Virus record (IMG/VR): IMGVR_UViG_3300045998_000148
Location: 1-64,000 of that record
Source: a virus
DNA: 64,000 bases
Strand: one strand, 5' to 3'
Shown here: piece after piece, positions 6,034 through 42,602 of the stretch
Numbering within the stretch: the first letter of the stretch is position 1
Layout of the letters: every line of letters begins with the position of its first letter
Made by a program: the position numbers and the translations under genes
The notes under the pieces: model-generated
Told to the model about the DNA's origin: nothing
The model's database searches: none
Seen by the model: only the letters and a program-made list of their open reading frames with translations

Positions 6034-6723
6034 TCAACCAAATTCGTAATAGCCGCCGTTGACCATGCCGCTAACCCGCACGAATTTTGCGGCATCAAGG
6101 GCATCCGTCCTTTTCTTTCTGGTCTTAGAAGGAGGCGTCTTAGGAGCCTCGCCAGAAGCCGTTTCCCGTATCACGTCCGATAGTTTTTTGCGGCCTTTCT
6201 TTTTAGATTTAGTTTCGCCCTTTTTCGCTTTAGACGATTCGGCGGCGGCGGTCAGCAGTTTTCTGTCTCCTGGGTTATTTGCGCTAACATCGCTCATCAA
6301 TTGCTTCCAATCTTCGTCAGATAAGTTTTCGCCAACAAGATCGCTCATTAATTGCGGCAAATCTTTGGCAGACAATGTGTAATATTCTTGCGCTCCCTTT
6401 CCTTTGGGTTCCAAAAGTTCTCCCTCGACGGCCTCTACTTGATTTTTCTTTTTCTTGCCGCCGCCGCCAGAAGTCAGGGCGCGTCCCGCCCCATAGCCCG
6501 CCGCCCCTACCGCACCGCCAACCAGCGTGGCAGCCAGCACCTTTTTAGCCAGTCCGCCCTTTTTGCCGCCGCCGCCTTCGCCGCTGCCGCCACCCCCGCC
6601 GCTGCCTTTGGGAAGAGATCGGTAATAGCCGCCGCCCTTCATTCCAGGTACTTTGACAAAAATCTTGTTGCCGATAATGGCGTCTTCTCGAAATTGTATT
6701 TTGGATAATATGCTGGTTGCCAC
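6034..6723 (-). CDS. Tagged phage protein with GGGYYR module and hydrophobic helix
   Basis: This 229-residue protein begins with GTG behind a strong ribosome-binding site (AGGAGGTATATC). Residues about 13-40 hold the tag shared with three other proteins here (DAIIGNKIFVKV, then GGGYYRSLPKG). A Gly/Ser linker follows, then a Gly/Ala hydrophobic segment (VLAATLVGGAVGAAGYGAG, about 61-79). The C-terminal half is Lys-rich and ends in a half-tag, FVRVSGMVNGGYYEFG. There is no enzyme domain. It may be the smallest member of a set of co-targeted proteins; function is unknown. Confidence 0.65.
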   Translation of the reverse strand: MATSILSKIQFREDAIIGNKIFVKVPGMKGGGYYRSLPKGSGGGGGSGEGGGGKKGGLAKKVLAATLVGGAVGAAGYGAGRALTSGGGGKKKKNQVEAVEGELLEPKGKGAQEYYTLSAKDLPQLMSDLVGENLSDEDWKQLMSDVSANNPGDRKLLTAAAESSKAKKGETKSKKKGRKKLSDVIRETASGEAPKTPPSKTRKKRTDALDAAKFVRVSGMVNGGYYEFG

Positions 6724-7169: not shown

Positions 7170-7487
7170 CTATTTTTGTTCTTGCTCTTGTACTTCTACC
7201 ACTCTCCGCAACGTGGCGATGCTATTTTCAATCGAAAAAAAATAACGGCACTGATTGGTACAGGCCAGCTCGCCGTACACGATGTTTTTTTCAGCTTCCG
7301 GCATCAAATAAAAAAAGCCCGCTACTTTCAAAGGAACGAAGTCTTCCTCGACGACGGTTTTCACATAGGCTTGCGCCCCTTTCATCGCTTTTTGAAAATC
7401 TTCGTCTTCCCGCAGCTTGTAAAGCTCCTCTTTGAACTTGTCAAACTTCGGCGTATCGCCCGACCGCGAATCTTTTGAAGGAGGCAT
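7170..7487 (-). CDS. Hypothetical protein, paralogue of 6745-7167
   Basis: This 105-residue protein starts with an ATG that overlaps the stop of the giant upstream gene by one base (TAATG), indicating translational coupling. The C-terminal two thirds match the neighbouring 140-residue protein, so the pair arose by duplication. The single CTNQC motif replaces the CSNC of the paralogue. No named domain is visible. Confidence 0.65.
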   Translation of the reverse strand: MPPSKDSRSGDTPKFDKFKEELYKLREDEDFQKAMKGAQAYVKTVVEEDFVPLKVAGFFYLMPEAEKNIVYGELACTNQCRYFFSIENSIATLRRVVEVQEQEQK

Positions 7488-10400
7488 TAGCTTGCTTGCT
7501 GTATTTTTCTGATTTTACCCGTATTTTGCGCGTTCAGTACGTCGAGGGTGCGGCTGGCCTCTGCCGTTACCGTTTTTTGGATGCCAAGGGTAGTTTCCAG
7601 CCCCGCCTTTACCTGTCGCGCCGTCCGAACCGCCTTCTTCGGCAATTCGGCATAGATTTTGCCGACTTCTTTAGCGGCGGCAGTAGCGTCGATTTCGCCC
7701 GACTTGTAGCGGTCGTAGACGCTGACGACATCGTTAGTCGTCGCCATTGCAACTACGGCTCCAATTCCCGGCGTGGGCAGGGGTATCGTGTGTTCAGCGA
7801 GCTGAGCCGACGCATTTCCGACGACCCAACCGCCGATATCTTGTTTTTTGACCTGCTCGGCAGCCGCAACGTCGCGGCGTTCGAGTTCGGCGATCGCCTC
7901 TTGGCGAAGCAGCTCTAATTTTTCAAGGCGTCCGGCCTGCTGGAACACGGGTTCGAGCTTGAGTTTGTCGTAAGCCGCCTTTGTCGCCTTAGCATCGGCA
8001 AACCCCCTGCGAATCGTGCGCGTGCCCATAATATCGCCAGCCAATGCCCCCGGCAAGCCGCCGATCGCGCCCCATTTGGCTCCATAAATGCCGCCCAGTG
8101 CCGCCGCCCCTTCTTCAACCAATTCGAGGCGACTCGGAACTTGCGTGCCGACCTGACTTGCCGCTTTGCGGGCGAGTTCCTCCCTCGCATTGCCCTCGTC
8201 GATCAATTCCTTGGTCGTGTCGTAGACAGCTTTCATGCTCGTGAGGAGCTTATTACGGACGATCGCCTCGCGCTGCGCCCCTTCCTTTTTTTGCTCTATG
8301 ATAATTTCGTCCTGCTGCCGCAAACCTTCTCGATAGCGCTCGACCGTAGCGCCCAAGACATCGCGGAACACATCTCTCTTTCGTTTCACCCGCAGCGTGC
8401 CGTCAGGCATTTCGACGACAGGCGAAAGCGCCTGCGCCAATTGACGAGCCGCTTTTTCGGTGCGTTCGTCGCCGCCGCCGACGACCTTCGCCCCCCTCTC
8501 TATAGCAGATTGGCTCGTTTCCGACAGCGCTTCCCTCGCTTTTTTTCGCACCGCTTCCGTGCCGACCACTTCCACGTTGCCGACGGAGATCGGCCTATCG
8601 GCTTCGCGAACCGCTGCAACCGCCTCGTCTTTAACCTTTTTAAGGGCTTCTTCTCGAACCGTTTTAAGGACTTCTTCTTTGACGCGATCTTTAACGCGAT
8701 CGGCGACAAAATCGGCAACTTTCTCGGGCGTACCTCCATCCTCTTCTGGATTGGGGTTCACATAGCGGACGGAGCGATAGGTTTTGCCGTCCTTGCCCTT
8801 GACGACTACCTCTTTGGCTACGAGGTCGGGGTCGTCTTTAAGGGCAGTTGACTTGCCGCCCCCGCCTGGTGCGGACTGGCGGGAAGCGGGTGGCTTGCCC
8901 ATTCGGTCGGCTCGCACGTTAAAGCCCCGAGCGGACGTAATCTTCCTGGCGAGCGCCTTGTTTGCCATCGGCAGCAGGCGGTTGAACTGCCTGTCGTCGA
9001 GGACTTGGGCAAGGGAGCGGTCTAATTTCGCTTTTAATTTGGGCAAGACGTCAACTTTTGGATTGGCCGATCGCTCCAGTGCAACGTCCCGAATGGCCTT
9101 TGCCCACAGGCGGTAGTAGGTCGATTCCTTGCTCTGGTGATAGGCGATCGCGATCTTGACTTCGTTTAACAGAGGGGATTCGCCTCTCGCGATCTGGCGC
9201 AGCGCCTCGTTCATCTTCTTTCGGATTTCGCCGATCCCCAACAGGAAATGCCCGCTTGACACTCCCGCCAGCACCCGTTCGACTTCAGCCTGATTGGAGC
9301 GTTCGTGCAGGGGATAGGCAATTTCTCCTTTAGGCAGGACGGGATAGGTATTGTTAATCGAAACGATCCGATCTACCAGGCGGCGTACAATTTTCGCCCC
9401 TTCCTCTTTTAGCCACTCGCGATCGCCGCCCGTCGTGACGCCCAACACGGCATCGCTACGGCGCTGCTTGCGCTTTCCGCGCTTGCTGTCGCCTTTACTT
9501 CGCTCGTAGATATTGCCGTTAAGGTAGACGTACTTGCCCTCATCGATAGCCGCAAGTCGGCGCTCTATCTCGGCCTCGAAATCGGCGAGGTGCTGGCGAG
9601 TATCGGCAAAGATCGTCTCCATGACCGTTTTTGCCTTGGCATTGGCGACCTCAATGCGATCGCCCTGGCGGATATAGTGATTGGCGTAGTTTTTCCGCAT
9701 TCGATTGGCAAGGCGTACCACGGGCTGCTTGCTGGCCTTTTGAATGCGCTTGAGGTAGTCGCGGTACTCTTCGACGGAACTAATTTGATTTGGCTCGAAC
9801 TTGGAACCTAACGTCATGTAATTGACGTAATTGCCGAGAGAGTCGGGACTGTAGGTTTTTGTCGCGTTTAAATTGAGAAAATCGACGATGCCCGCATATT
9901 TTGTCAGGTCTGCACCTCTCGGGTTTTGTGTCGGGCTGACGGCGGCCTTCATCACTTCCAGCAATTTCAAGGATTGAGCTTCTTCGGGGAAGCGTTTTTC
10001 AAATACCTTGTAGGTCTGCATTTCCTTCTCAAAGGGAGACATGGAGTTTGAAGTCCTAATTTCCTCCACCTCTCGCCTGAATTCGCCAAACTGCTTTTCC
10101 ACCGCTTCATAAATCGACATATCCTCGGCAGTTTCCGACTGTCGAAGTTTCCTCGACCGCTCCTGCGGGACGCCTGCCGGAGAGTCCGAAGTCCCCGACT
10201 GTCGAGTGCGATCGGCTGCGACAGTACCCGCCTGTCTCGCCTGTTTCTTTTCCGTGCCGGAGAGCCGATCTCGACTGGCGATCGTTTTCTGTCTCACCCC
10301 TTCAATTGCGTCGAGCTGTCGTTCGAGCATGGCAGATTCGCGAGTCCACTGGTCGAGAGCCTTGACGCGCACCTGCTGTCGGCCTGCCTCGGCGCTCATT

Positions 10401-12505
10401 TCTTCTTGCGACTGCCAGAAATGTTGCACGCTGTTCTTGTTGACCAAATCGACGGCCTTCCGCGCTTCGGCAATTTTGGCCTGCAAGCCTGCATTGCGCT
10501 CGGACAGCACCCGACTTCGCTCGTCTAATTTCTGGATTCGGCGATCGAAGAAGGCAATTTTTTTATCGACCTGGCGCTCAGCACTTTTGCCAATGCGGGC
10601 GATCGCCCTCTCTTCTTGCTCGGTAGCGCGGGAAGCGGCAAGCAAGCGCTGGTTTTGATTGGTCGCAATGCCGCCCGTTATCATTCCCGCGACTCCAGTA
10701 CCCGACAGGGCGGGGATGGCGACAGGCAGTACACTATTGTCGAGAGCAGAACGGACGAACTCTTTTTCGCGGACGGAGGCGATCGCGCCTGGAGTAGACT
10801 GGACAATCGCGCCTGGAGCAGACTGGACAATCGCGCCTGGAGCAGACTGGACAATCGCGCCTGGAGTAGACTGGACAATCCCATTATTTCCCTCGGAACG
10901 CTTTCGAGTACGGGCAGCAGCAGCCAGCCCCGCGCCAGCAACTCCGGCAATGGCGGCGGCGGCAATTATTTTTGTTGCGGCAGAATTTCTCCTGCCCTGG
11001 TGCGCGTTCTCTGCGGACGTATCGAGCGACTTAGCCCCCTTCAGCCGCCTCGTCCTCGCGGAAGGCTTTTCGTCTTTTGCTTCTCCCGGCAGCGCTCGAT
11101 AGTAGTAGCCACCTCCCGCTTTCTTGACCTTCACTTTTCCGCCGATGACGGCATCGCGACGGTTGGCGATCGCGGAGGCGGAGGCACTTCTGTCTTGGCG
11201 CGCGTTCCCTTGGCGAGGAAGCCTCGCCGGGGTCGCACCGCTCTTGTCAGTACGACGGCTCAATTGCCGCGAACGAGACTGCGGAAATTTCCTCGACGAC
11301 TTATTCCGTCCGTTCGGCGAGGTAGGTTTTTCGGCGACGGGCACATTCATTTCGGGCAAGTTTTTTTCGAGGTGTTCGATTAACCTGCGGCTCGAACGGT
11401 AGTTGTCTTTAATGCTGGCTACCCCGACAGTGCGCCGCACGATATCGACTAAACCTCCCTTCTCCTGGCTGAGGTAATCGCCGTACAATCCGATTTGTTT
11501 GGGCGGAGGGTATTCGTCGGCAAGCTTCCGAAGCGTCCTGCCGTAGGTGACGAGCGCCTTCCTGCGATCGGCGGGCAACTGTTTGTAATCGATGCCTTTC
11601 CAGTTGCTTAAATTTTTATCGGCGAGGCTGGCGTTGGGAACGATCGACATCTTGTGATCGACGCCGACGCCCATATCGATCCCCCAAAAAGAATCGCTTT
11701 TTTCGTCGTAGAAAATATTTCCGCGTCCTCGATCCCAATTGCCCGTAAACGTATCGAGGGCAGCTATTTTAGGCAAGTCTTCGTGTTTTGCCAGTGTCTT
11801 TAAATGTCCCGGCGTCAGTCCCTTAAAGCGATGGGCGATGTCGAGATCTTTAAATCGATGGCCGCTTTCTAGAGAGTCTACGGGCTTGCCGGGAACTAAT
11901 TCGTGGAGGGTAGCGCCAAACGGCCCTTGTTTGAGGGGGTGCTTCAACGCTGCCGGAACCATCTGCGTCGAATTGACCTTGATGCCCAGCGATCGCCCCA
12001 TCTGCGCGGAGAGTGCATCTGCACTCGCTTGCATATAAGAAATCGGCAGCTTGACTTGCTTGAAAATGTAGGGACGATCCTCTTCGTCCTTTACAAAATA
12101 ACTGTTGCCCGTCACGCCCGCCGTTATCTTTGGCTTGCTCTTGTCTAGCGTTATCTTGTCTAACTTTTCCTGCGAGATGACGTTTAGTGGCGTCTTGCCG
12201 CTATTTCGGTACGTCTCCTGCACCTTGTCAAGGACACCATAAACAGCGGCGGCAGCGATCGCACCCCTTACCGCAGCAAGGGCGACGGCGGATTTTACGG
12301 GAAGGCGAGAATCCCCGCCCGTCGCGGATTTGACCGACTCTCCCGCAGGGCGTTTCTTGCGGCTAGATTCTCGCCTGCCCTTTCCCGGCAGCGCTCGGTA
12401 ATAGTAGCCGCCGCTCGGTTTCTTGACCCTGACCCTTCCGCCGACAATGGCATCGAGGCGTCTGCTCTCTTGGTGCGCTTTTAGACTAAGAAGGTTTGTC
12501 TGCAT
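7487..12505 (-). CDS. Giant tagged polyvalent protein with HipA/PI3K-like kinase domain
   Basis: This 1672-residue protein carries two copies of the tag (about 18-41 and 450-473; core GGGYYYRALPG). Each is followed by a basic linker and a hydrophobic Ala/Gly segment (about 71-91 and 509-531). Residues about 105-350 resemble the HipA/PI3K-like kinase fold: a lysine strand (PYIFKQVK), a catalytic-loop-like GNWDRGRGN (255-263) and a metal-binding-like GIDMG (275-279). Downstream are four 8-residue repeats (IVQSTPGA), long coiled coils, and Gly/Ala-rich hydrophobic stretches near the C-terminus. It is translationally coupled to its neighbours. Phage polyvalent proteins of this kind can be injected with DNA, which is a family-based inference. 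Kinase activity is unproven. Confidence 0.7.
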   Translation of the reverse strand: MQTNLLSLKAHQESRRLDAIVGGRVRVKKPSGGYYYRALPGKGRRESSRKKRPAGESVKSATGGDSRLPVKSAVALAAVRGAIAAAAVYGVLDKVQETYRNSGKTPLNVISQEKLDKITLDKSKPKITAGVTGNSYFVKDEEDRPYIFKQVKLPISYMQASADALSAQMGRSLGIKVNSTQMVPAALKHPLKQGPFGATLHELVPGKPVDSLESGHRFKDLDIAHRFKGLTPGHLKTLAKHEDLPKIAALDTFTGNWDRGRGNIFYDEKSDSFWGIDMGVGVDHKMSIVPNASLADKNLSNWKGIDYKQLPADRRKALVTYGRTLRKLADEYPPPKQIGLYGDYLSQEKGGLVDIVRRTVGVASIKDNYRSSRRLIEHLEKNLPEMNVPVAEKPTSPNGRNKSSRKFPQSRSRQLSRRTDKSGATPARLPRQGNARQDRSASASAIANRRDAVIGGKVKVKKAGGGYYYRALPGEAKDEKPSARTRRLKGAKSLDTSAENAHQGRRNSAATKIIAAAAIAGVAGAGLAAAARTRKRSEGNNGIVQSTPGAIVQSAPGAIVQSAPGAIVQSTPGAIASVREKEFVRSALDNSVLPVAIPALSGTGVAGMITGGIATNQNQRLLAASRATEQEERAIARIGKSAERQVDKKIAFFDRRIQKLDERSRVLSERNAGLQAKIAEARKAVDLVNKNSVQHFWQSQEEMSAEAGRQQVRVKALDQWTRESAMLERQLDAIEGVRQKTIASRDRLSGTEKKQARQAGTVAADRTRQSGTSDSPAGVPQERSRKLRQSETAEDMSIYEAVEKQFGEFRREVEEIRTSNSMSPFEKEMQTYKVFEKRFPEEAQSLKLLEVMKAAVSPTQNPRGADLTKYAGIVDFLNLNATKTYSPDSLGNYVNYMTLGSKFEPNQISSVEEYRDYLKRIQKASKQPVVRLANRMRKNYANHYIRQGDRIEVANAKAKTVMETIFADTRQHLADFEAEIERRLAAIDEGKYVYLNGNIYERSKGDSKRGKRKQRRSDAVLGVTTGGDREWLKEEGAKIVRRLVDRIVSINNTYPVLPKGEIAYPLHERSNQAEVERVLAGVSSGHFLLGIGEIRKKMNEALRQIARGESPLLNEVKIAIAYHQSKESTYYRLWAKAIRDVALERSANPKVDVLPKLKAKLDRSLAQVLDDRQFNRLLPMANKALARKITSARGFNVRADRMGKPPASRQSAPGGGGKSTALKDDPDLVAKEVVVKGKDGKTYRSVRYVNPNPEEDGGTPEKVADFVADRVKDRVKEEVLKTVREEALKKVKDEAVAAVREADRPISVGNVEVVGTEAVRKKAREALSETSQSAIERGAKVVGGGDERTEKAARQLAQALSPVVEMPDGTLRVKRKRDVFRDVLGATVERYREGLRQQDEIIIEQKKEGAQREAIVRNKLLTSMKAVYDTTKELIDEGNAREELARKAASQVGTQVPSRLELVEEGAAALGGIYGAKWGAIGGLPGALAGDIMGTRTIRRGFADAKATKAAYDKLKLEPVFQQAGRLEKLELLRQEAIAELERRDVAAAEQVKKQDIGGWVVGNASAQLAEHTIPLPTPGIGAVVAMATTNDVVSVYDRYKSGEIDATAAAKEVGKIYAELPKKAVRTARQVKAGLETTLGIQKTVTAEASRTLDVLNAQNTGKIRKIQQAS
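10792..10880 (+). repeat. 24-bp tandem repeat, four copies
   Basis: Four near-identical 24-bp units (GCGCCTGGAGTAGACTGGAC plus ATC and one base) encode IVQSTPGA/IVQSAPGA repeats in the giant protein, just after its second hydrophobic segment. Confidence 0.85.
11194..11246. repeat. Single 51-bp palindromic repeat copy
   Basis: One copy of the 51-bp family (GGCGAGGAAGCCTCGCC core, flanked by GCGCGTTCCC and GGGGTCGCACC) lies in frame in the giant gene and encodes ATPARLPRQGNAR, directly before the second tag copy. A half-copy (CTCTTGGTGCGCTTTT, about 12468-12483) lies in frame before the first tag. Confidence 0.75.
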
Positions 12506-14003
12506 ATTTTTTGATTTTTTTGGGATCTAGCGTCATAGCTGCGAAAAAGTGCATCAAATAATCTTTGATTAAAAAGATGCGGATTTCGTCTGACATCGTG
12601 CCGTCAAATTGTTTGGCAATCGCGATCGCCAGCGCGTCTGCTTCTTCGGGATGTTTTAATCCTAATTGAGAAAAGAGACTTGCAAATTCCTGGCTTTCAT
12701 AGAAGCGGCGGACGATCTCGCTCGGCATTTGCGCCATCCCTTTCCCTGCCAATGGGCTGCGAGGGGGATTGCGAGGGGAACCTCCGGCCAGGACATCGGC
12801 GGCATCTTTCCTGCCTATTTTTTCGCGACTCCTCCGTTTAAATGTCACGAACTCGTTTATTCTCTGTCGCTGCTGCGCCCGCTTGTTTTTTCTCTGCTGC
12901 TGCCGCTCTCGCTCCATCTGTTCGCGGCGTTTTACGAGATTGGTCACATATTGCTTCTCGCCCGTATAGGGATTGGGAATTTCTTCCCACAAATCGCGCT
13001 TGCGGTTAATAGAGTCTTGCTTGTTCAGGAAGTCGGTAATTTGTGAGGCTGTCAGTTTCTCTTTATTGCGGGCGTAGTCGGAAAAGCCGTAAAAGCCAAA
13101 GTTGAGCTTTTCGCCCGACTTTGCCTTTTCTATTTGCTTCTCCCACTCCGGGCGCGTCCTTATTTTGAGGATGTTGTGGGTGACGGTATCGCCGACAAAG
13201 CGAGTTAGAGGCGAAACTTTAAATGCCTGAGAGGAGTAAGCGTCTCCTTCGACGATCGCTCGGGCAAAAGATTCGCAGTTGGAGCTGAAGCCCTTGTAGG
13301 TGAAGTCGCTGTAGAGCATTTGATGGGCGCGTTTTACTCGTTCTTCGCGGGGGATGTAGCGACTTTTTTGGGTCTGGTACATCTCCTCTTCTGGCACTTT
13401 TTCGTATTCGCTATCGTTCATGCGGGCGTCGGGCAGTATCCAAGTCAGCCCTCGAATGTTGATAAACGGGGTGTGGTCGCGAGTTTTCCAGTTTTCGCCG
13501 GAATCGATCATCATGTGTTCTTTGGTTATCGGATCTTTGCCGACATAAACCGCATAGTGTTGGGCATCGCCCAGCGTCGGCGACTTGATATTTTTGCGGA
13601 TCAAGTCTCCCGGCTCGAAGGTATCGTACTTGGCGAGAGTAAGCGCGTCGGGAATGCCGTCAGGCGGCTGGCGGATAGAAGCAAAGTCCGTGGGCAACTT
13701 TTCTTTGATGTCTTTGTAGACGCCGTGGGCAGCTCCCAATACCGCAAAGCCGATTACTGCCTTCAGCGGGGTTTTGAGGCCGATCGCCTTCATCTCCCTT
13801 ATTACTTCGCCGGAGCCGTCGATCAGCGCGGCCTGCGATCGGCTCAGCCCTTGGTATAAATTAGCCTTCGCCTGCACAGGTCTTCGGCCAACTCCCTTCT
13901 CCTTCTCGCGCCCCTCCCCCGGCAGCGCCCGATAGTAATAGCCGCCTCCGGCCTTTTTTACCCTGACCTTGTTGCCGACAACAGCATCTATCCTGAATGC
14001 CAT
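12486..14003 (-). CDS. Tagged protein with LRAT/NlpC-P60-like domain
   Basis: This 505-residue protein is the first gene of the minus operon; its ATG is preceded by AAGGAAT. Residues 5-29 are the tag (DAVVGNKVRVKKAGGG then YYYRALPGE), and residues about 80-96 form a hydrophobic helix. Residues about 128-265 match the lecithin-retinol-acyltransferase branch of the NlpC/P60 papain-like fold: PGDLIR, HYAVYVG with His149, and SNCESFA with Cys243, the expected catalytic pair. Relatives act as acyltransferases, thiol hydrolases or phospholipases. The C-terminal half is charged helix. The stop overlaps the next gene by 20 bp. The domain call is fairly firm; the substrate is unknown. Confidence 0.75.
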   Translation of the reverse strand: MAFRIDAVVGNKVRVKKAGGGYYYRALPGEGREKEKGVGRRPVQAKANLYQGLSRSQAALIDGSGEVIREMKAIGLKTPLKAVIGFAVLGAAHGVYKDIKEKLPTDFASIRQPPDGIPDALTLAKYDTFEPGDLIRKNIKSPTLGDAQHYAVYVGKDPITKEHMMIDSGENWKTRDHTPFINIRGLTWILPDARMNDSEYEKVPEEEMYQTQKSRYIPREERVKRAHQMLYSDFTYKGFSSNCESFARAIVEGDAYSSQAFKVSPLTRFVGDTVTHNILKIRTRPEWEKQIEKAKSGEKLNFGFYGFSDYARNKEKLTASQITDFLNKQDSINRKRDLWEEIPNPYTGEKQYVTNLVKRREQMERERQQQRKNKRAQQRQRINEFVTFKRRSREKIGRKDAADVLAGGSPRNPPRSPLAGKGMAQMPSEIVRRFYESQEFASLFSQLGLKHPEEADALAIAIAKQFDGTMSDEIRIFLIKDYLMHFFAAMTLDPKKIKKYADKPS

Positions 14004-17944: not shown

Positions 17945-18922
17945 TTATTGGTTTTGGAAAAAAGGTGAATCCGAAGCAATGGCGGCTTGTGCCCTTGCAA
18001 GTTCTTTCCCCAAATAGAAAGCGCAATCTAAGTTTAAGATAGGTTCGTTTAAGACAATTTGCGAATACACTTGCCGCGCCGTCGTTCCACTGTATTCTGC
18101 TAGCTTGCCAGTGCGACTGTAGTGCAGGCATTGAATGTTGCTATTTTCGGTCGTCACGACAAAATAGCCGTCCTCGCTCGACAGGCTGCGCCCAAAGCCG
18201 CAGCAGTTAAGGGGTTTTAACTTGTAGTTGACGGCCAGTATTTCGCCTGCCTTTTCCCAGTCGCCGCTGTAGAGCTGGCAGGAATTCAGGTAGAGAAATA
18301 CGCTGCCGACAGCGCGATTGAGGGCATTCGTGATGTAATCGCGGAGGACAAACAGCCAGCAAGCACAGCGCCGATAATCTGCAAACAAGTCGAGGTCGCG
18401 AAAGAACGCTGACAGGATTACTTCGTTGTTTGAAACCTGAACGTCGATTTGCGACAGCGAGGGCGCATAGCGGCTTTTGCGGTCGCTAGCAGAATCGTAG
18501 ATAGGAATCGTGACCTTAGCGGTGTCGTTTTTGGCGAGCTGGGCGATCGCTTCGCCAATTGCATCGTAGCCGAATAACTTTCGCAAACGATAGGCATAGG
18601 TAAAAAAGCTGGTACTGTCGCTAACTTCAGGGGCGGGCGGATTCTGCTGCATCAATTCGACACAAAATGCTTCAATCTGTTCGCCCTCGAACAGCCAGGG
18701 CATTACCTCGACATTAGAGGCGATCGCGACGGTCGCGCCATGTATTTCAACGCACGAGTTGTCCTGCAAGACCGTTCCGTACTTGCGAACCCGAAACAGC
18801 AATTGCAGCCAGCTTTCGGCGACCGTCTCGCCTGCAAGGGAGTGGACGAGAGGGCGCGTCCTGCGCGTTTTCTTTGGCCGCTCGATACTGCGATGCGCCT
18901 GTCCTGTAATGTTGTCTTTCAC
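17945..18922 (-). CDS. Thymidylate-synthase-like protein, catalytic part plus DUF4346
   Basis: This 325-residue part starts at a GTG that overlaps the stop of the upstream gene (GTGA). It matches the archaeal-type ThyA-like family: RPKKTRRTRPLVH, AESWLQLLFRVRKYGT, TYAYRLRKLFGYD, LSAFFRDLDLFADY and SGDWEKAGEIL. It ends in a DUF4346-like tail (GYFVVTTENSNIQCLHYS then YLGKELARAQAAI). At the expected catalytic Pro-Cys the sequence reads YAPSL, so Ser145 replaces Cys, and the usual Asn-Ala-Tyr is RCACW. It may be an inactive or repurposed synthase. The long open frame upstream of the GTG in this frame is a shadow of the next gene. Confidence 0.72.
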   Translation of the reverse strand: MKDNITGQAHRSIERPKKTRRTRPLVHSLAGETVAESWLQLLFRVRKYGTVLQDNSCVEIHGATVAIASNVEVMPWLFEGEQIEAFCVELMQQNPPAPEVSDSTSFFTYAYRLRKLFGYDAIGEAIAQLAKNDTAKVTIPIYDSASDRKSRYAPSLSQIDVQVSNNEVILSAFFRDLDLFADYRRCACWLFVLRDYITNALNRAVGSVFLYLNSCQLYSGDWEKAGEILAVNYKLKPLNCCGFGRSLSSEDGYFVVTTENSNIQCLHYSRTGKLAEYSGTTARQVYSQIVLNEPILNLDCAFYLGKELARAQAAIASDSPFFQNQ

Positions 18923-19422
18923 GGGGGCGGCAAAATAAGGGGAAGGAAATAGGGATCGCTGCAACGGTGGCGCTGCACCAGTCCCGACAAGAAGGCGAGG
19001 GGAAAACCGCTCTCCTTGTCGTTCAAACAAAAATAGGGGATTCTCTGTAGCTTGTATAAATGTTCCGGCGTGATGTCGTCTCGCAGGAAGGGCTGAAACT
19101 CGCGCTGCCGGACGTAGCGGAAACTCAGCCACAGCCTGCTCAATTGGGCGATCGCGCCGCTTGCAGCGTCGGCATCCGTCAGTTCGAGGGCGATCGCGCC
19201 CGTCAGCCAGGGGTTCGCCAGTATATTGCGAACGATCGGGTCGATTTCGCCGCAGGCGTGTAGGGGAAAGATAGCGGCAAAAGAGGGAATGCCCACCCTG
19301 TCTGCAATTGCAGCGGGAGGGGTATAGCCAGAAACGATAGCCCAATCGCCCTGGCCGTAAATTACGCCCTTGCAGGGACAGGCAGGTACGAAGCGAGGAG
19401 CGCAAACGGACGGGTCGTGCAT
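18919..19422 (-). CDS. ThyA-like N-terminal domain (split gene)
   Basis: This 167-residue part resembles the N-terminal domain of archaeal-type thymidylate synthases and MtrA-like proteins: GQGDWAIVSGYTPP, then IDPIVRNILANPWLTGAIAL, compared with the family pattern GDIAIVTGWT...RNLLANP. Normally this domain is fused to the catalytic part encoded just downstream; here a TGA ends it four bases into an overlap with the next GTG. Either the gene is naturally split, a ribosomal frameshift joins the parts, or a frameshift mutation or sequencing error has broken it. ATG 19422 is taken as start; a TTG at 19437 overlaps the previous gene. Confidence 0.6.
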   Translation of the reverse strand: MHDPSVCAPRFVPACPCKGVIYGQGDWAIVSGYTPPAAIADRVGIPSFAAIFPLHACGEIDPIVRNILANPWLTGAIALELTDADAASGAIAQLSRLWLSFRYVRQREFQPFLRDDITPEHLYKLQRIPYFCLNDKESGFPLAFLSGLVQRHRCSDPYFLPLILPPP

Positions 19423-29976: not shown

Positions 29977-32352
29977 CTATCTGTAGAGTTTGCGAAGGTA
30001 ATTCAATACATCGGCATTCGCCATGTACGATCGGGTCGCATCGCCGACGCCATCGATCTCGTGAGCGCCCGTCTTCTGAGGAAAGACGCCGAAGCGATCG
30101 TTTGCGCCGATGAGCGACAGTTCCGCAAGTGGCGTCCCCGCTTCCGCCATGCCGAAAGTAGGCGTCGAGATCGTCGCGAGCCGAAATTGCTCCATGATCT
30201 TCTGTGCCTTGGGTACGCCGTGGGTCTTGACGAGGGATTGATAGAGGATGTCGTAGGACACCCGTGCCTTAATTCCGGCATCTTTAGAGGCGAGCATCGC
30301 AATACGGCGGTTCGGCCTCGATTCGATATTGTCGGAAAGGGCAAACAGGTTGGCCGCCAGTCGAATAGATTCGGGATCGACGGGTTCGGTATCGACGGCA
30401 CTCAGTCCCAAATTGCGGCGAATGGCAGCGCCAAACCCGTCAATCGAGATGTGCTTGAAACGCTCGTCCTTGCTAAATGCACTCGCTCCAAAGGGGGCGT
30501 CCGCTTCTTTAATGCCGAATTCGGAGGCGACGGAAAAAAACTTAGTCATCCCGCCTGCTAAATTGCCGCTCTTACTCGTCCTGCCCTTGAGCCGATCGCC
30601 TTCGGGAATGCCGTCGAGCAAGTCTTCGTCTTTCTCCCAAGTACCGCCCATCAAAAAAGTGAGGTTGTTCTGCTTTTCCTTCTTTATCGCGTCGAGCTTG
30701 GGCTTGTTCAGCTTGGCGGCCTCGGCGAGGGCGAGGTCTGCCGCATTTTTGACATTCTCCTGGTATTTCTTGTTGGCAGCGGCGTATTCCTTGGGGCTGA
30801 GTCCCGTTACCGTACTGCCCGCAAAGAGGCGGTAGCTGGCCTTGTCGCCGAGAGCCATTTCTTTTAACTGCCCGACGCGATCGAGGAACGTATTGAGCGA
30901 GGGGTTGTAGCGTTCGGTAGCCTCATCCAACTGCTTTTGCAGCGCATTGCTGCGGTTGGAGATGCGGCTGGAATAGTAATTTAAGCCCTCGCGCAACTTG
31001 TCGCGCACGTCTCGATTTTTGAGGTAATCTTCGGCCTCGCCGCCCATTACCGATGCGATCCACTGCGGCTTTCGTTTCGGCATCCAGCTAGCCGGATCTT
31101 TGGCGCTCGTAACGGTGCGGTCGTTGACGTTGCGCCAGATACTCGGCGTATCGGCCACGCCAAAGGTAGGACTGCCCAACCGCACGAGGTTGATGCGCTC
31201 GGTAATGCTGAGGCCGCCCGACGCGCTGCGATCGGCTTTTTTCATCCGCCCCAGTATCTCGATCGCCTCGTTGGAGATGTTGCCGCCGACGCCGTGGGCG
31301 ACGATATTTAAGGGCTTGTCGGGATAGCGGTTGCCATAGGCGTAGAGCTGCGCGGCCAGGTCGATAGCCGCATCGCTGCGACCCCGCACGATATTGTTCG
31401 TGATGTAGCCTTTAATCCGATTGTTTATCTGGTGCGCCAGGTGGAAGGGGTTGGGCTTGCCGTTGAGCCACTTAGCATTATGGGGAGAAAGGTCGGAATC
31501 CTCGTCCGGGTTTTTAAAAGCAACGACGTGATTGCGCTCGCCGAACCAATTTTCTTCTTCCGAATTGTCCGTATTTTGCAGCAGCATCTCCCGCAACCGA
31601 TCGCCTTTAGAATTCTGAGAGCCGCCGCCGCCAACGGCAAACAAGATATTTTCCTTGCTCGTCGTATCGACCTGCATTTGCTTGGCTCTTGTCAGGGCGA
31701 TGTCGGCAGACTCCTTGAAGCCGTCGCGATGTCGCGACTTGGCCTGCTCGTACTTGGCGGCAGTAAAGCCGATAATGCCCGCCGCCAACAGGATACCCGC
31801 TCGCTTGGGATTGGCAGAGACGATCTTCTGCAACTTAATTGCCAGCCGCAGATCTTTTGCCGCTCCCTTGGGCAGCGAACTCAAGACGGCAGTGCGTTCC
31901 TTGCGGCGGCGCTCTAAAGTCTTTCTAAAATTGCGCTCCTCTTCGGGATTGCTTTCGACTAATTTAATCTGCCGAATTAACTGATCTTTGGTAAGGTGAT
32001 TGGCGCGATAAATTTGTTTTCGCGAGGCGATCGACTGCAACTCGCGGATCGAACGGTCTTCGAGCTTGCTGCCGCCCGCCTTCACGCCTTCGGGCAGCTT
32101 GCGCCAGTAACCGCCGCCCTTTACGCTCGGATCTCTAACGTACACTTTATCGCCGCGCCGCAAAGCCGGACGGCTATCTTGGTGCGCGTTCCCTAGCGCC
32201 GTGCGACGGCGCGGGGTCGCACCGCTATCTTGGTGCGCGTTCCCTAGCGCCGTGCGACGGCGCGGGGTCGCACCGCTATCTTGGTGCGCCGCCGAGGGTT
32301 TCTGGGCAGTTGAGGGCTTTAGACTTGCTTGCATTGGCGCGATCGTGAACAT
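29977..32352 (-). CDS. Tagged protein with two alpha/beta-hydrolase-like lobes
   Basis: This 791-residue protein begins with in-frame 51-bp repeats (residues 22-58), then the tag (about 65-90: RRGDKVYVRDPSVKGGGYWR), a Rho-N/SAP-like helical motif (100-130) and a hydrophobic segment (PKRAGILLAAGIIGFTAA, 182-199). Residues 235-440 and 562-790 are two related lobes. Each has FxxGG near its start and a later P-T-F-G motif (LGSPTFG, ISTPTFG) followed by NDR. Lobe 1 has AHGVGG (352-357) where lipases have GHSxGG, so the nucleophile Ser appears absent; lobe 2 has LASKDAG. It lies directly upstream of the tape measure. A virion or effector role is inferred. Confidence 0.62.
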   Translation of the reverse strand: MFTIAPMQASLKPSTAQKPSAAHQDSGATPRRRTALGNAHQDSGATPRRRTALGNAHQDSRPALRRGDKVYVRDPSVKGGGYWRKLPEGVKAGGSKLEDRSIRELQSIASRKQIYRANHLTKDQLIRQIKLVESNPEEERNFRKTLERRRKERTAVLSSLPKGAAKDLRLAIKLQKIVSANPKRAGILLAAGIIGFTAAKYEQAKSRHRDGFKESADIALTRAKQMQVDTTSKENILFAVGGGGSQNSKGDRLREMLLQNTDNSEEENWFGERNHVVAFKNPDEDSDLSPHNAKWLNGKPNPFHLAHQINNRIKGYITNNIVRGRSDAAIDLAAQLYAYGNRYPDKPLNIVAHGVGGNISNEAIEILGRMKKADRSASGGLSITERINLVRLGSPTFGVADTPSIWRNVNDRTVTSAKDPASWMPKRKPQWIASVMGGEAEDYLKNRDVRDKLREGLNYYSSRISNRSNALQKQLDEATERYNPSLNTFLDRVGQLKEMALGDKASYRLFAGSTVTGLSPKEYAAANKKYQENVKNAADLALAEAAKLNKPKLDAIKKEKQNNLTFLMGGTWEKDEDLLDGIPEGDRLKGRTSKSGNLAGGMTKFFSVASEFGIKEADAPFGASAFSKDERFKHISIDGFGAAIRRNLGLSAVDTEPVDPESIRLAANLFALSDNIESRPNRRIAMLASKDAGIKARVSYDILYQSLVKTHGVPKAQKIMEQFRLATISTPTFGMAEAGTPLAELSLIGANDRFGVFPQKTGAHEIDGVGDATRSYMANADVLNYLRKLYR
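32179..32290. repeat. 51-bp repeat array (2-plus copies)
   Basis: GGTGCGCGTTCCC recurs at 32181, 32232 and 32283, an exact 51-bp period. The core here is AGCGCCGTGCGACGGCGC, a variant of the GGCGAGG core seen elsewhere. The array encodes the N-terminal AHQDSGATPRRRTALGN repeats of the tagged hydrolase-like protein. Confidence 0.9.
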
Positions 32353-32824: not shown

Positions 32825-33392
32825 TTTCGGTCGCTCCCTCCTCCTTCACTGCCGACGGGTAGAATGCCTCCGCTCCGCCTTGCGACCCTCTTGGTGCGCT
32901 TTCCCCTGGCGAGGACGCCTCGCCGGGGTCGCACCGCTCTCTTGGTGCGCTTTCCCCTGGCGAGGAGATCTCGCCGGGGTCGCACCGCTCTCTTGGTGCG
33001 CTTTCCCCTGGCGAGGACGCCTCGCCGGGGTCGCACCGCTCAATCAAGAGGGCGATCGCCATTTTCAGGTGTTCTTCCGCACGCTTGCTTTCGCGATAGT
33101 ACGAGTCCGACTGAGATAGGAATTGCAGTCGAGTGAGACACGATTGCAGCACGTCCTCCAAGTACGCTCCATTGCGTGCGTTGCGGTCTAACTCGCCGCG
33201 CTGCCAGCTAATCGTAAAGCCGATGCCCGTCGAAACGCCGCCCACTGGAATGCCGCCTTCTTTCCAATTTGCGTTTAAATACCAGTCTTCGGTCAAGTTT
33301 CCGCGCATTTCCCGCGTAAAACAATAATCTAGCGAACTTTCCACGACTTTCAACTCCCGCTCAAGAATTTCGATCAAATGCTGAACCCCCAC
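32814..33392 (-). CDS. Hypothetical neck protein with repeat-extended C-terminus
   Basis: The native part (about 120 residues: IEILERELKVVESSLDYCF...) is followed by three 17-residue copies encoded by the 51-bp repeat (ERCDPGEASSPGESAPR) and a short tail. A GTG at 33392 gives a reasonable start; the longer frame from 33431 overlaps the previous gene by 58 bases. Position between DUF4054 and the 151-residue gene suggests a head-tail joining role. The repeat tail is probably tolerated because it is C-terminal. Confidence 0.58.
   Translation of the reverse strand: MGVQHLIEILERELKVVESSLDYCFTREMRGNLTEDWYLNANWKEGGIPVGGVSTGIGFTISWQRGELDRNARNGAYLEDVLQSCLTRLQFLSQSDSYYRESKRAEEHLKMAIALLIERCDPGEASSPGESAPRERCDPGEISSPGESAPRERCDPGEASSPGESAPRGSQGGAEAFYPSAVKEEGATESGE
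32888..33043. repeat. 51-bp repeat array (three copies)
   Basis: GGTGCGCTTTCCCC starts at 32893, 32944 and 32995. Each unit is a near-palindrome: GGTGCG...CCCC-TGGCGAGG against CCTCGCC-GGGG-TCGCACC. The middle copy has the variant core GGCGAGGAGATCTCGCC. Confidence 0.92.
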
Positions 33393-34669: not shown

Positions 34670-35866
34670 TTAAGGCAGCACGAGGATGACCATTGCCGCC
34701 TTGCGGTAGAGGAGGACGCCAGCCGTCGAAAAGCAGGAAGCCCTCACGATTGAATCCCAGCCGAACTCCTTGGGCGGCAAGTCCATGATGTCTGGCGTAG
34801 TCATCTGGAAGCGCAGGTTAGCCGGATTGCGCTTGTAGAATACGATCACGTTATTGGGGTTTAATCCCTTTTCGGCTAGCTGAGCGGCGTCTAATTCGGT
34901 CATTGCCTTAATATTGACCAGTCCGTTGCGCTCCATGCAGTATTGGAGGGTGGACTTGGAGACATTAGCGGTTACTGCCGCTACGCCAGTCGGCGTCGAG
35001 TAGAAGAGTTTATCGGCGAGGACATTGTAAATGCTATTAGACATCAACACCGTATCGGGCTTGTTAAGGGCAACGCGATAGGGTTCGATTATTTGATGGT
35101 AGCGAGCGCCGAGGTTGAACACGGCGAGGTCGGATTCCGGCGTCGTCGCCGTCGTAATCCCGATCGCGCTGTAAAAAGTAAGCCGTTCGGGGTGGTTGGC
35201 AAATCCGGGCAGGCCGACGCTCGGATCGCCGCGCAGCACCAGATCGGATTTCATCTGCTGCGCTCCGGCCAGCATCGCCAATCGCTTAATAGCGGGCAAG
35301 TCGATTGTCGTCGCGCCGTTCATCCCCGCCCTGGCGATAACCGCCAATTCCTTTGGCGAGAGGGTATAGCCGCCGTAATAGCTGTAGATCGGATCGATCC
35401 ATTCGGCAAACGCCGCTTCAGTCTGGGGGATGTCAGTGGTCTGCGGCGATCCCTGCTTCCACTGCCCGACCGCTTCTACGTTGTAGTGAACGTAGCTAGT
35501 CGCGAAAGGATCGTTAGCCGTCTGGATCGGGAAAATTTCGCCATCGCCAAAACTGCCGGGGGCGGGCATCTCCATCGAGACTTGCTTATCGACTAATTCC
35601 AACCCCCGCGCTACTGAGGTCACTAGCGGCTCCGAGTCCAGCCTGCCCACTCCCATAGAAGTAAGGCTAGCCTCGATCGCATCGCGGCGCTGTTGGTTGC
35701 CGACAGCCAAGTAAACGGCATCGTCTACCTTTACTTGCGTCGGATTTTTGTTTAGGGCGTCCATCCGAGCCTGCGCGGAGGCAGTAAGCCCAGACTCGTT
35801 TCCGTAGGCATTACTTAGGGCATTTAATCCCAATTCACTGCCTTGCATTACCAGGCTGTTAGACAT
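34670..35866 (-). CDS. Major capsid protein, DUF2184-like
   Basis: This 398-residue protein matches the DUF2184 major-capsid family (HK97-fold): an N-terminal arm, then SYYGGYTLSPKELAVIARAG, a helix MLAGAQQMKSDLVLRGD, GLPGFANHPER and a C-terminal TTPDIMDLPPKEFGWDS. It would form the icosahedral shell. A GGAG lies about 12 bases before ATG 35866. The cement protein and protease-scaffold genes lie immediately upstream on the same strand, the usual head-module order. Confidence 0.87.
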   Translation of the reverse strand: MSNSLVMQGSELGLNALSNAYGNESGLTASAQARMDALNKNPTQVKVDDAVYLAVGNQQRRDAIEASLTSMGVGRLDSEPLVTSVARGLELVDKQVSMEMPAPGSFGDGEIFPIQTANDPFATSYVHYNVEAVGQWKQGSPQTTDIPQTEAAFAEWIDPIYSYYGGYTLSPKELAVIARAGMNGATTIDLPAIKRLAMLAGAQQMKSDLVLRGDPSVGLPGFANHPERLTFYSAIGITTATTPESDLAVFNLGARYHQIIEPYRVALNKPDTVLMSNSIYNVLADKLFYSTPTGVAAVTANVSKSTLQYCMERNGLVNIKAMTELDAAQLAEKGLNPNNVIVFYKRNPANLRFQMTTPDIMDLPPKEFGWDSIVRASCFSTAGVLLYRKAAMVILVLP

Positions 35867-36852: not shown

Positions 36853-38610
36853 CTAGCGAGCGACGGACGACCACACCGAGGGGGTGCTGTTTTTCCAGGC
36901 TTCGTTGATAGAAGGCGACAGGGTAGCAATGCGATCGACGACTCCATCCTCCCTCGCCTCTTTTGCTTGCGACTTGCCGCCGATGGCATTGAGTACGCTG
37001 TCGAACTGCCGAGCGTGTTTTGACGGCGGGCGATGCGTCGAATCGCTGCGGCTCGATGCGGACGCCGAATCGAGATCGCCTTCGCCGCCCTCTTCTTCTT
37101 GGGAATCGAGGTGGACTACTCCAGCGGTATTGGCCGCGTGCAGCCACGCATAGATCGAAGCCGCTCCATCGGCGGAAAGGCTGTCGTAGTGGAAGGATTC
37201 GCTGGGCAGCACGCTTTCCAATATGGCAATAGCGCCGCGCTTGGCGATATCGTCGAGTTCCGCCTGAGTCGGAAATTTCGAGTCAAACCGACTCAGTTCT
37301 TCTGCCATGTGAGGAAAGGCGCGATAGGTCGCCATTAAGTCGGCTGGAGTGACGGAATCAAAAGAATCGCTTCGGTGTTTTGCCTTGCCCTTCTTTTTAA
37401 TAGTCGTTGACTCTCCCCCTTCTTCTCCTTCTTCTTCGCCCTCGCCTTCGAGTTCGTCGTCGAATTCGCCGTCTTCGTATTCATAATCCGTCTTTTTTTT
37501 CTTGGTCTGCATGGCATCGCCTCTTGTTTGATTTGATTTGTGGTTGTCCCGTCCGTTTTTTTCGCCTTCGAGAGGATTGCCCTCGCTATCGAATCGCTCG
37601 TAGCCCGAAGCATCCAAATATTGCTCGAAAGCACTTCCCGCCTCTACCGCGTAGGAAACGCCATCCCAAATTATGCCCACTTGAGACATGGCCGCATCTG
37701 CCTGGTCGAGCCGCAGTTGCAGATCGCTCAGGGCTTCCTGCCATTCTTCGGATTTGACTTCGCTATCGCTGCGGGTAGTGCGCTCGGAATCCAGCTCTGT
37801 CCGCAGCGCGTCGAGAGAAGCATCCTTTGCCTGCAATACCTGAGACAGTATTGCGACCGAATCCGATCGGAGGTGTATTTCAGTGCGATCGCCGTTTGCC
37901 AACTGCAACGAATAGGGCGTCAGCCCTATCAATTCGGAATTTTCATTGCCCATGAAAAAAAACCTCCTGTTAGGATTTTCTAAAATATCGGAATCGATGC
38001 GCCAGCCCATATCCCAATCGCGCAAGAAGGAATTATCGCCGTCGAGTCGCGAATCGAGGTGCAGCCGCGCCTCGCATCCGGCTCTCGCCCTTTCAGTAGT
38101 TGCAAGGTGGTTGGGATCGATAAACGTCTGAATGCAATCGTAACGCTCCCCTCGGTAAATTCCCGGCTCGTGTTTCGGGATTAAATAATAGCCGAGCGAC
38201 AGTTCGCGCTGCTGGGCGCGTTCGATCGCCTCGATCGCCTTGGCGTCGTAATAGGTAAGCCACCCATCGAGGCGCGGCGAGGCAAAAGAATAATCGCTGC
38301 CGAAGCCGACCATCAGCTCCTTCGTATTCTGCGCGTTCACCATGTAGCCGGGGGGATGTTCGATGGTGACGGGCAGCGGCACTTCCCGCGAACGAAGGGT
38401 ATGCAACAGCCGCTCGTTTTCCGAGTCCGGCCTGTACTCCCGCACGACGCTGCCATCGGGCTTCTGATAAGTCAGTATCCCCGACAGACAAATCGTGCCG
38501 GGAGCTTTTAAATATCCCTCTTTAGTACGGACGGCATTGCCCGTTATGGTTCCGGCATCGTACCGAATTGCCTTTCGGTCGTCGTTCACTTTTTCTGCTG
38601 CAATGAACAC
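36853..38610 (-). CDS. DUF2213 prohead protease fused to scaffold-like tail
   Basis: This 585-residue protein has an N-terminal DUF2213 protease-like domain (about 15-190): KEGYLKAPGTICLSGILTY, VPLPVTIEHPPGYMV, ERAQQRELSLGYYLIP and DPNHLATTERARAG, with His and Ser in the expected places. A coiled coil follows (LDALRTELDSERTTRSDSE), then a Lys-rich and very acidic region (DDELEGEGEEEGEEGGES) and a helical C-terminus. That layout suggests a protease that carries the scaffold in one chain. It lies upstream of cement and capsid genes. A GTG at 38610 or one eight codons later may be the start. Confidence 0.78.
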   Translation of the reverse strand: MFIAAEKVNDDRKAIRYDAGTITGNAVRTKEGYLKAPGTICLSGILTYQKPDGSVVREYRPDSENERLLHTLRSREVPLPVTIEHPPGYMVNAQNTKELMVGFGSDYSFASPRLDGWLTYYDAKAIEAIERAQQRELSLGYYLIPKHEPGIYRGERYDCIQTFIDPNHLATTERARAGCEARLHLDSRLDGDNSFLRDWDMGWRIDSDILENPNRRFFFMGNENSELIGLTPYSLQLANGDRTEIHLRSDSVAILSQVLQAKDASLDALRTELDSERTTRSDSEVKSEEWQEALSDLQLRLDQADAAMSQVGIIWDGVSYAVEAGSAFEQYLDASGYERFDSEGNPLEGEKNGRDNHKSNQTRGDAMQTKKKKTDYEYEDGEFDDELEGEGEEEGEEGGESTTIKKKGKAKHRSDSFDSVTPADLMATYRAFPHMAEELSRFDSKFPTQAELDDIAKRGAIAILESVLPSESFHYDSLSADGAASIYAWLHAANTAGVVHLDSQEEEGGEGDLDSASASSRSDSTHRPPSKHARQFDSVLNAIGGKSQAKEAREDGVVDRIATLSPSINEAWKNSTPSVWSSVAR

Positions 38611-41402: not shown

Positions 41403-42188
41403 TCAAAGAGAAAGGGCAGACCGCGCCCGATTCCAGTAGGCTAAGCGATCGTTTAATCCGTTGAGGCCGCCGTTAATCCTGCGCGTAACCTGCTTGAAAG
41501 CGTTCAAGTTATTCGCTTTGGCAATCCTATTGAGCTGCCTCGTGTGCCAGAACCAGCCCGCCACCCCCGCACTGAGGTAGGGATCGTCGGCAACGCGCTC
41601 CGGTTCGCCCATCAAGTCCATATTAAAAAACTCCCCCGCCTGCTTGTAGTTTGTCGCGCCCGTCAGTTGGATCAGGCCGCGCCCCTTATAGCGGACGCCC
41701 CATCCCGGCCTGATATTGCCCAAATCCGCCCTGCCCTCGTAAGCGCTGCCGTCTGCAATCTCCTCCTTATAGCGGAGGGAACCGGACTCGTGAGCTAGTT
41801 GAGCGATAAACATCGCCACCTGAGACGGCGTTTCGATCGCGAAACGAGCCAGGGTAGCGTTAATCGGGTCGAGATAGGTATTGATATTCGCCCGACTCGC
41901 ATTCGGCATGACGTAGCGATAGAACTCTTTATCCAACAACACGACTGGACTTTGCGGGCGTGCAGCGGGCGGCTCGATGACAGACCAATGATCGGCAAAA
42001 ACATAGCGCTTGCCCGAACGGGCGGCGAGGGTGACGAGCCAGTGGCCGGAAGGGGCGTCTTCTATCGTCTCGACGCCGTATTCCCTGCCTGCCGGAACGA
42101 ATTGCAGCGCATCGGGCGCGAGGTCTTGCGAGGGCATGGGAGCCGACTTCAACCAAGTAATGACTTTAGCTTTAATTTTTTTTTGCAT
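41403..42188 (-). CDS. GH19-type phage lysin
   Basis: This protein of about 261 residues has an N-terminal beta-rich, SH3-like domain (about 1-80), then a GH19 chitinase/lysozyme-like domain: FIAQLAHESGSLRYKEE with the catalytic-type Glu, VRYKGRGLIQLTGATNYKQ, and GVAGWFWHTRQLN. It is expected to cleave peptidoglycan sugar bonds. The N-terminal domain resembles that of the second lysin at 50871-52082. The ATG at 42188 lies inside a tandem duplication; the frame open further upstream to 42416 is repeat-derived and not native. Confidence 0.85.
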   Translation of the reverse strand: MQKKIKAKVITWLKSAPMPSQDLAPDALQFVPAGREYGVETIEDAPSGHWLVTLAARSGKRYVFADHWSVIEPPAARPQSPVVLLDKEFYRYVMPNASRANINTYLDPINATLARFAIETPSQVAMFIAQLAHESGSLRYKEEIADGSAYEGRADLGNIRPGWGVRYKGRGLIQLTGATNYKQAGEFFNMDLMGEPERVADDPYLSAGVAGWFWHTRQLNRIAKANNLNAFKQVTRRINGGLNGLNDRLAYWNRARSALSL

Positions 42189-42602
42189 CGAACTCTTTAT
42201 CCAACAACACGACTGGACTTTGCGAGCGTGCAGCGGGCGGCTCGATGACAGACCAACGATCGGCAAAAACATAGCGCAACACGACTGGACTTTGCGGGCG
42301 TGCAGCGGGCGGCTCGATGACAGACCAACGATCGGCAAAAACATAGCGCAACACGACTGGACTTTGCGGGCGTGCAGCGGGCGGCTCGATGACAGACCAA
42401 TGATCGGCAAAAACATAGCGCTTGCCCGAACGGGCGGCGAGGGTGACGAGCCAGTGGCCGGAAGGGGCGTCTTCTATCGTCTCGACGCCGTATTCCCTGC
42501 CTGCCGGAACGAATTGCAGCGCATCGGGCGCGAGGTCTTGCGAGGGCATGGGAGCCGACTTCAACCAAGTAATGACTTTAGCTTTAATTTTTTTTTGCAT
42601 CG
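41923..42602. repeat. 268-bp tandem duplication of the lysin 5' end
   Basis: The block 41923-42190 (start AACTCTTTATCCAACAACAC) is repeated at 42191-42602. The second block is 144 bp longer because it contains a 72-bp unit in three copies rather than one. The copies are nearly identical, so the event is recent. The junctions share GTTCGATGC. Confidence 0.9.
42172..42600 (-). CDS. Truncated lysin duplicate with tripled repeat, 142 aa
   Basis: This open frame starts with the same MQKKIKAKVITWLKSAPM as the GH19 lysin, keeps the SH3-like domain, then repeats a 24-residue unit (YVFADRWSVIEPPAARPQS...) three times and ends LLDKEFDAKKN by re-entering the junction. It lacks the GH19 domain. It overlaps the stop of the DHH gene by 17 bases and the start of the lysin gene by 17, exactly as the lysin once overlapped DHH. 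It may be a free wall-binding protein or an accidental product. Confidence 0.6.
   Translation of the reverse strand: MQKKIKAKVITWLKSAPMPSQDLAPDALQFVPAGREYGVETIEDAPSGHWLVTLAARSGKRYVFADHWSVIEPPAARPQSPVVLRYVFADRWSVIEPPAARPQSPVVLRYVFADRWSVIEPPAARSQSPVVLLDKEFDAKKN

Follow-up and report, generated by a model that had tools for sequence, protein, structure and literature searches.

What does the gene at 12486..14003 (minus strand, (-) below) of this viral DNA encode, and at which stage of infection would its product act? The stretch analysed here, the window, is 64,000 nucleotides long and comprises positions 1 to 64,000 of IMG/VR record IMGVR_UViG_3300045998_000148, a virus record of 99.9 kb. The gene has an ATG start and encodes 505 aa. 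From sequence motifs, the first-pass annotation had proposed an LRAT/NlpC-type papain-like domain, a membrane segment, and action on host lipid or wall after entry. Its signature motifs, HYAVYVG (His149) and SNCESFA (Cys243), are found at the positions claimed, and its limits for the ORF are exact.

Fold and catalytic residues of the LRAT domain

From N- to C-terminus, the protein comprises a tag, a hydrophobic helix, the LRAT domain, a charged linker, and a conserved helical segment. It begins MAFRIDAVVGNKVRVKKAGGGYYYRALPG, and the N-terminal GGY tag, RIDAVVGNKVRVKKAGGGYYYRALPGEG, covers residues 4–31 (13911..13994 (-)). The membrane segment proposed earlier is plausible, yet in the window protein itself the membrane-like helix (residues 73–102; 13698..13787 (-)) is borderline, with a best 19-residue hydropathy value of 1.45 at residues 73–91; the relatives examined have a stronger helix at the same place, with values of up to 2.1. 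An R-x-D-A motif, RKDA (R398–A401; 12801..12812 (-)), lies after the LRAT core and before the C-terminal segment; its R398 and D400 are invariant in four LRAT homologues in the full-length alignment. The C-terminal helical segment (residues about 449–491; 12531..12659 (-)) is common to the LRAT modules of G001, a viral contig described below.

The LRAT family (PF04970) is the sole Pfam family above cut-off in the protein, matching residues 130–254 at 31.7 bits (E 2.1e-7; curated cut-off 24.3 bits), and both Pfam and the predicted structure place the domain there (13242..13616 (-)). Scanning the whole 99.9-kb record with the same profile returned the same protein (E 1.7e-9) and no second LRAT match elsewhere in it. 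Single-sequence phmmer matched only PLAAT3 chains in the PDB, weakly (E 0.029, 4q95). In an alignment with PLAAT3 (33% identity), His149 (13557..13559 (-)), His163 (13515..13517 (-)), and Cys243 (13275..13277 (-)) fall on PLAAT3 residues His23, His35, and Cys113. The second catalytic His, His163, was absent from the first-pass annotation and is added here; the order His-His-Cys with its NC(E) motif is present as H149, H163, and C243–E244, all of them invariant in the alignments.

The structure-prediction check suggested earlier for a papain-like core was run with AlphaFold2, once for the full protein from 4 sequences (low overall confidence, core pLDDT about 60–85) and once for the domain alone from 5 sequences (core blocks mostly 66–93). 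In both models, Cys243 is at the N-terminus of a helix, His149 is part of a strand, and the following strand opens at His163. In Foldseek searches of the PDB, PLAAT3/H-REV107 entries were the only matches at E<0.001 for either model (E 2e-5; TM-score by target 0.63–0.73, with moderate model confidence), and this structural match implies a catalytic arrangement of the three residues. No phage protein in the viral structure library BFVD was matched by Foldseek at E<0.001; the best match of the LRAT model there was an RNA-virus polyprotein.

Profile, predicted structure, and conservation therefore bear out the LRAT half of the earlier domain assignment. The NlpC half does not stand: a classical NlpC/P60 enzyme is ruled out because His149 precedes Cys243, a permuted order rather than Cys-His, and no NlpC/P60 family matches in Pfam. 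On its predicted fold and aligned catalytic residues, we identify the gene product as an LRAT/PLAAT-type papain-like cysteine enzyme.

PLAAT3 carries its membrane helix at the C-terminus, whereas the phage LRAT helix is N-terminal and is accompanied by a phage tag and an extra C-terminal segment. The two are alike in joining a membrane helix to the catalytic domain, and the fold, His-His-Cys set, and NCE signature are those of LRAT/PLAAT proteins (PF04970; human PLAAT3, PDB 7zom, 4dot, and 4q95). LRAT-like folds are also seen in other viral proteins in BFVD (picornavirus-like polyproteins, Harvfovirus), but their owners are RNA viruses and giant viruses of eukaryotes, unlike the phage here.

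Relatives, tags, and the tagged repertoire

Single-sequence scans of viral contigs, genome contigs, and annotated phages with the whole LRAT protein found no relative, nor did tblastn against 50,697 annotated phage records. The tag alone, a two-row LRAT+PLAAT3 query, and the kinase region of a neighboring protein found none either, and the major capsid protein (MCP) found none in viral contigs. Relatives were reached only through a hydrolase module. The window encodes a 791-aa tagged alpha/beta-hydrolase homologue (29977..32352 (-)) that adjoins the tape measure gene and has a homologue in Aphanizomenon phage CL131, gp048 (27% over 413 columns). The hydrolase search led to G001, a 67-kb viral contig whose 1975-aa protein has two LRAT domains, each 39% identical to the window LRAT over the aligned regions. 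This pair in turn led to LRAT proteins in L018, L023, and L040, and in L019 and L061 of a Thermosynechococcus MAG. In total there are eight LRAT domains in seven phage contigs, with a tag and a hydrophobic helix upstream in the protein; L019 and its second copy L060 are one domain and were entered once.

Only nine columns are invariant across the eight phage domains and PLAAT3, at a mean column identity of 44%, and three of the nine are His149, His163, and Cys243. This conservation argues against a dead LRAT fold with a structural or binding role in the virion, which we regard as very improbable. Dead enzymes do occur in the putative cargo set, as the tagged hydrolase lacks its nucleophile Ser both in the window 791-aa protein (HGVGG, compared with HSxGG) and in its CL131 counterpart (HGYGG). 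Since the CL131 counterpart is also degenerate, the dead form of the hydrolase may itself be under selection.

LRAT as a host gene was considered and rejected. The clade is present in one of 386 cyanobacterial genomes, the Thermosynechococcus MAG, and absent from the other 385; L019, the contig whose neighboring genes were read, bears phage head genes. This distribution suggests a phage-associated clade, not one acquired from present-day hosts, and unlike PLAAT3 it was seen here only in phage contigs. A cyanobacterial host for the window phage is supported by the abundance of the HIP1 octamer GCGATCGC, as in many cyanobacterial chromosomes: 164 copies in the whole 99.9-kb record, with about 2 expected by base composition.

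Several other features of the record were observed. Tandem arrays of related 51-bp units lie at 32173–32289, 32888–33041, 43472–43644, and 50387–50512; the units have GGTGCGC.TTCCC and GGGGTCGCACC in common, and some arrays inside ORFs encode in-frame peptide repeats. A large array of a 13-bp unit, CTACAGATCGCCG, is found beyond the window at 70451–71800 of the record. A GH19 (chitinase-like) gene (41403–42416) has three 72-bp repeats (42205–42421) at its start. A DHH/DHHA1-type phosphoesterase-like protein with weak Pfam matches is encoded among the virion genes (42584–43663 (-)), and a protein with a PterinBD-DUF4346 domain at 17945–19405 (-).

The GGY tag has the consensus RxDAxxGxKVxVKKxGGGYYYRALPG, followed by a hydrophobic helix. 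In the window's LRAT gene run, it is carried by the LRAT protein, by a 1672-aa protein whose ORF overlaps that of LRAT by 20 bp (7487..12505 (-)), and, at the other end of the run, by a 229-aa protein that likewise has a hydrophobic helix (6034..6723 (-); tag 6604–6690). The 1672-aa protein has the tag twice, at residues 16–43 (12377..12460 (-)) and internally at residues 449–476 (11078..11161 (-)) with a hydrophobic helix after it, and contains a HipA-like kinase region at residues about 107–289 (11639..12187 (-)). The 791-aa hydrolase homologue has a looser, GGY-like tag (residues 66–89; 32086..32157 (-)).

At the corresponding place, proteins of CL131, PaV-LD, G001, L018, L019, L023, and L040 have a Cys-rich element of the form R-x-D...C-x-x-G-x-x-C-G-x-x-C-I-P...C or R-x-D-K-x-C-G...C. 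The LRAT domain follows a GGY tag in the window phage and a Cys tag in G001, L018, L019, L023, and L040, and the hydrolase follows a GGY-like tag in the window phage and a Cys tag in CL131 and G001. Since homologous enzymes carry different tags, tags and enzymes are interchanged as modules. The G001 LRAT polyprotein also has five GG(R/K)YLRK elements that resemble the tag of the 791-aa protein, VRDPSVKGGGYWRKL. Their kinship with the window GGY tag is likely by pattern but unproven, because an HMM of the G001 'VKGGxYLRK' tags gave no significant match to the window GGY tags (best 0.034, to the 791-aa protein).

Most tags are followed within roughly 130 residues by a hydrophobic Gly/Ala-rich helix, the exceptions without a clear helix being the ADP-ribosyltransferase (ART) and metalloprotease-like proteins of PaV-LD. 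Searched with a strict pattern for one Cys-tag form, viral contigs yielded 34 matching stretches. Almost all of these are in an open frame, and in most cases a hydrophobic segment follows shortly.

LRAT is one class of domain behind the tags, and alpha/beta-hydrolases, both active-looking and degenerate, are another. Tagged ART-like domains (PaV-LD ORF079 and, by eye, ORF085), zincin-like HExxH proteins (PaV-LD ORF080/081, by eye), and a J domain (L019, Pfam) also occur. A region of the 1672-aa window protein is homologous to a HipA_2-kinase/2H-phosphoesterase protein of L018, which matches Pfam HipA_2 and whose gene clusters with that for the L018 LRAT protein. This repertoire is what would be expected of effectors, not of structural proteins. 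The J domain, DnaJ-like, is part of a second tagged module in the LRAT proteins of L019 (9605–11569) and L061, where it was recognized by eye. The L023 and L040 LRAT proteins share a C-terminal segment that ends YCARSFGDM...CLSRAKWKCSGK and may be one more common cargo or assembly element of phages.

Head genes and the R-x-D motif

In five other phage contigs, the LRAT gene is part of the head cluster or adjacent to it. In G001, the polyprotein gene adjoins the genes for the DUF2213 head protease and the MCP, and in L018 the LRAT gene directly follows the portal gene (PF06381). It is next to a DUF2213-type gene in L040, near one in L023, and downstream of DUF2213 and the MCP in L019. The window does not have this arrangement: its LRAT run, a set of overlapping or closely spaced same-strand genes of which three are tagged, is separate from the head genes and lies some 8 kb beyond the tape measure gene, near the primase.

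A second connection to the head is the motif R-x-D-[AS]. It occurs 10 times in the window's DUF2213 head maturation protease/scaffold (36853..38610 (-); 0.7 expected) and three times in the N-terminal part of the MCP (34670..35866 (-); 0.17 expected). In a set of nine proteins, DUF2213 proteins and MCPs from five phages, 44 copies were observed against 3.0 expected, and no other X-x-Y-[AS] motif comes close to this enrichment there. All MCPs examined have it near the N-terminus save that of L019 (RLDE), and it is not among the top motifs of 10 other window proteins. The tags themselves start with R-x-D-[A/S/K], many with R-x-D-[AS]. Tagged effector proteins have 29 copies against 6.3 expected, an enrichment that partly reflects the tags for which this set was chosen; the protease and MCP enrichment is independent of that choice. 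These figures describe a pattern and do not amount to a clean test, because the motif came to notice in part of the same protein set. In PaV-LD, whose DUF2213 protease is ORF071, 23 of 24 copies lie in the virion region (3.9 expected), with one elsewhere against 6.7 expected. Two Cys-tagged PaV-LD proteins, ORF081 and ORF085, are annotated as 'virion structural protein' and 'minor virion protein', respectively. CL131 virions contain 23 proteins by LC-MS/MS, identified with fully tryptic peptides alone, a setting under which processed ends would be missed (PMC6293099). The tagged proteins of CL131 include gp045, gp047, and gp048.

The simplest reading of these sequence patterns is that R-x-D-[AS] is the cleavage site of the head-maturation protease; some other head-assembly signal is less likely. 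As several Cys tags start with R-x-D-K, R-x-D may instead belong to the tag and not mark a cut site.

The distance of the window gene run from the head genes, together with the hydrophobic helix, would also fit a late-expressed membrane LRAT lipid enzyme that is never packaged, remodels the host membrane for lysis or superinfection exclusion, and uses the tag as a membrane-targeting or assembly element. We consider this unlikely, given the R-x-D adjoining the tags, the LRAT genes at the head cluster in the five other contigs, and the near confinement of R-x-D-[AS] to the virion region in PaV-LD. Less likely still is that the domain is a cysteine protease or polyprotein processor that separates tagged units, as in the 1975-aa G001 protein. 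The papain-like superfamily also includes proteases, and several putative cargo proteins are built as polyproteins in which tag-helix units recur. However, the nearest family and fold is PLAAT3, a phospholipase/acyltransferase; tagged polyproteins also occur in phages with no detected LRAT, such as CL131; and the R-x-D motifs go with the DUF2213 protease and the capsid protein instead.

Proposed role: a lipid enzyme as head cargo

We consider it rather probable that the gene encodes a membrane-anchored LRAT/PLAAT-type thiol acyl-enzyme that is carried in the head and ejected into a cyanobacterial host. The tag region would direct the protein to the interior of the prohead. There, the DUF2213 protease would cut it at R-x-D|[AS], both close to the N-terminus and in the stretch that joins the LRAT core to the C-terminal segment. 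What remains would then exit with the phage DNA, and its hydrophobic helix would insert into the host membrane. Cys243, activated by His149 and His163, would attack acyl esters of membrane glycerolipids via a thioester, and the outcome would be phospholipase A activity or acyl transfer, as in PLAAT3. We infer the packaging, cleavage, ejection, membrane insertion, and lipid substrate. The likely benefit would be membrane remodelling at entry, either to ease passage of the genome or cargo or to alter the membrane against defence or a second phage. Of the two targets proposed earlier, host lipid after entry is the most likely, with the tags, genomic context, and R-x-D sites all pointing to it, and host-wall action found no support.

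Polyvalent proteins and MuF-fused effectors are likewise multi-domain enzymes encoded with head genes and thought to be co-injected with DNA (PMC5512222, PMC5576092), and ART, 2H phosphoesterase, and kinase domains are also among the tagged proteins here. The LRAT protein instead has a small GGY or Cys-rich tag and a hydrophobic helix, and the Pfam scan found no MuF, portal, or other polyvalent domain fused to it. LRAT and lipase are absent from the main text of the polyvalent-protein paper (Iyer et al. 2017), which notes a paucity in cyanobacteria (PMC5512222). T4 IPs/Alt and the SPN3US ejection proteins have targeting propeptides that are cut by the prohead protease (PMC7411985). The proposed parallel with these is conceptual: an N-terminal targeting element, a protease motif common to capsid protein and cargo, and ejection. 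The motif is AXE in SPN3US and R-x-D, a putative cut site, here; in addition, the protease family here is DUF2213 and the tag precedes a membrane helix.

More broadly, and with confidence just short of even, we propose that DUF2213-type tailed phages, including cyanophages, use a previously undescribed modular loading code of swappable tags that packs various enzymes in the capsid and anchors them in the host membrane at entry. As proposed, the code would consist of a GGY-type or Cys-rich tag with an R-x-D maturation site first and mostly a membrane helix next, and its cargo would include lipid enzymes of the LRAT/PLAAT and alpha/beta-hydrolase types. The phage literature searched has no report of head-delivered lipid enzyme cargo of this kind. 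The LRAT protein adds a new member to a known enzyme family and places that family in a new setting; the setting, a proposed tag-helix-enzyme cargo class with swappable tags and probable head-protease sites, is the more interesting part. If the proposal is true, membrane-anchored lipid enzymes reach the host from the heads of some tailed phages, and this delivery would be a prokaryotic counterpart of the virion phospholipases of animal viruses. It would also account for several 'hypothetical' genes that lie between the portal, capsid, and tape measure genes of cyanophages such as PaV-LD and CL131. R-x-D, tag, and helix would together be a sequence rule for recognizing head cargo among unannotated phage proteins, one that existing virion mass-spectrometry data could test straight away.
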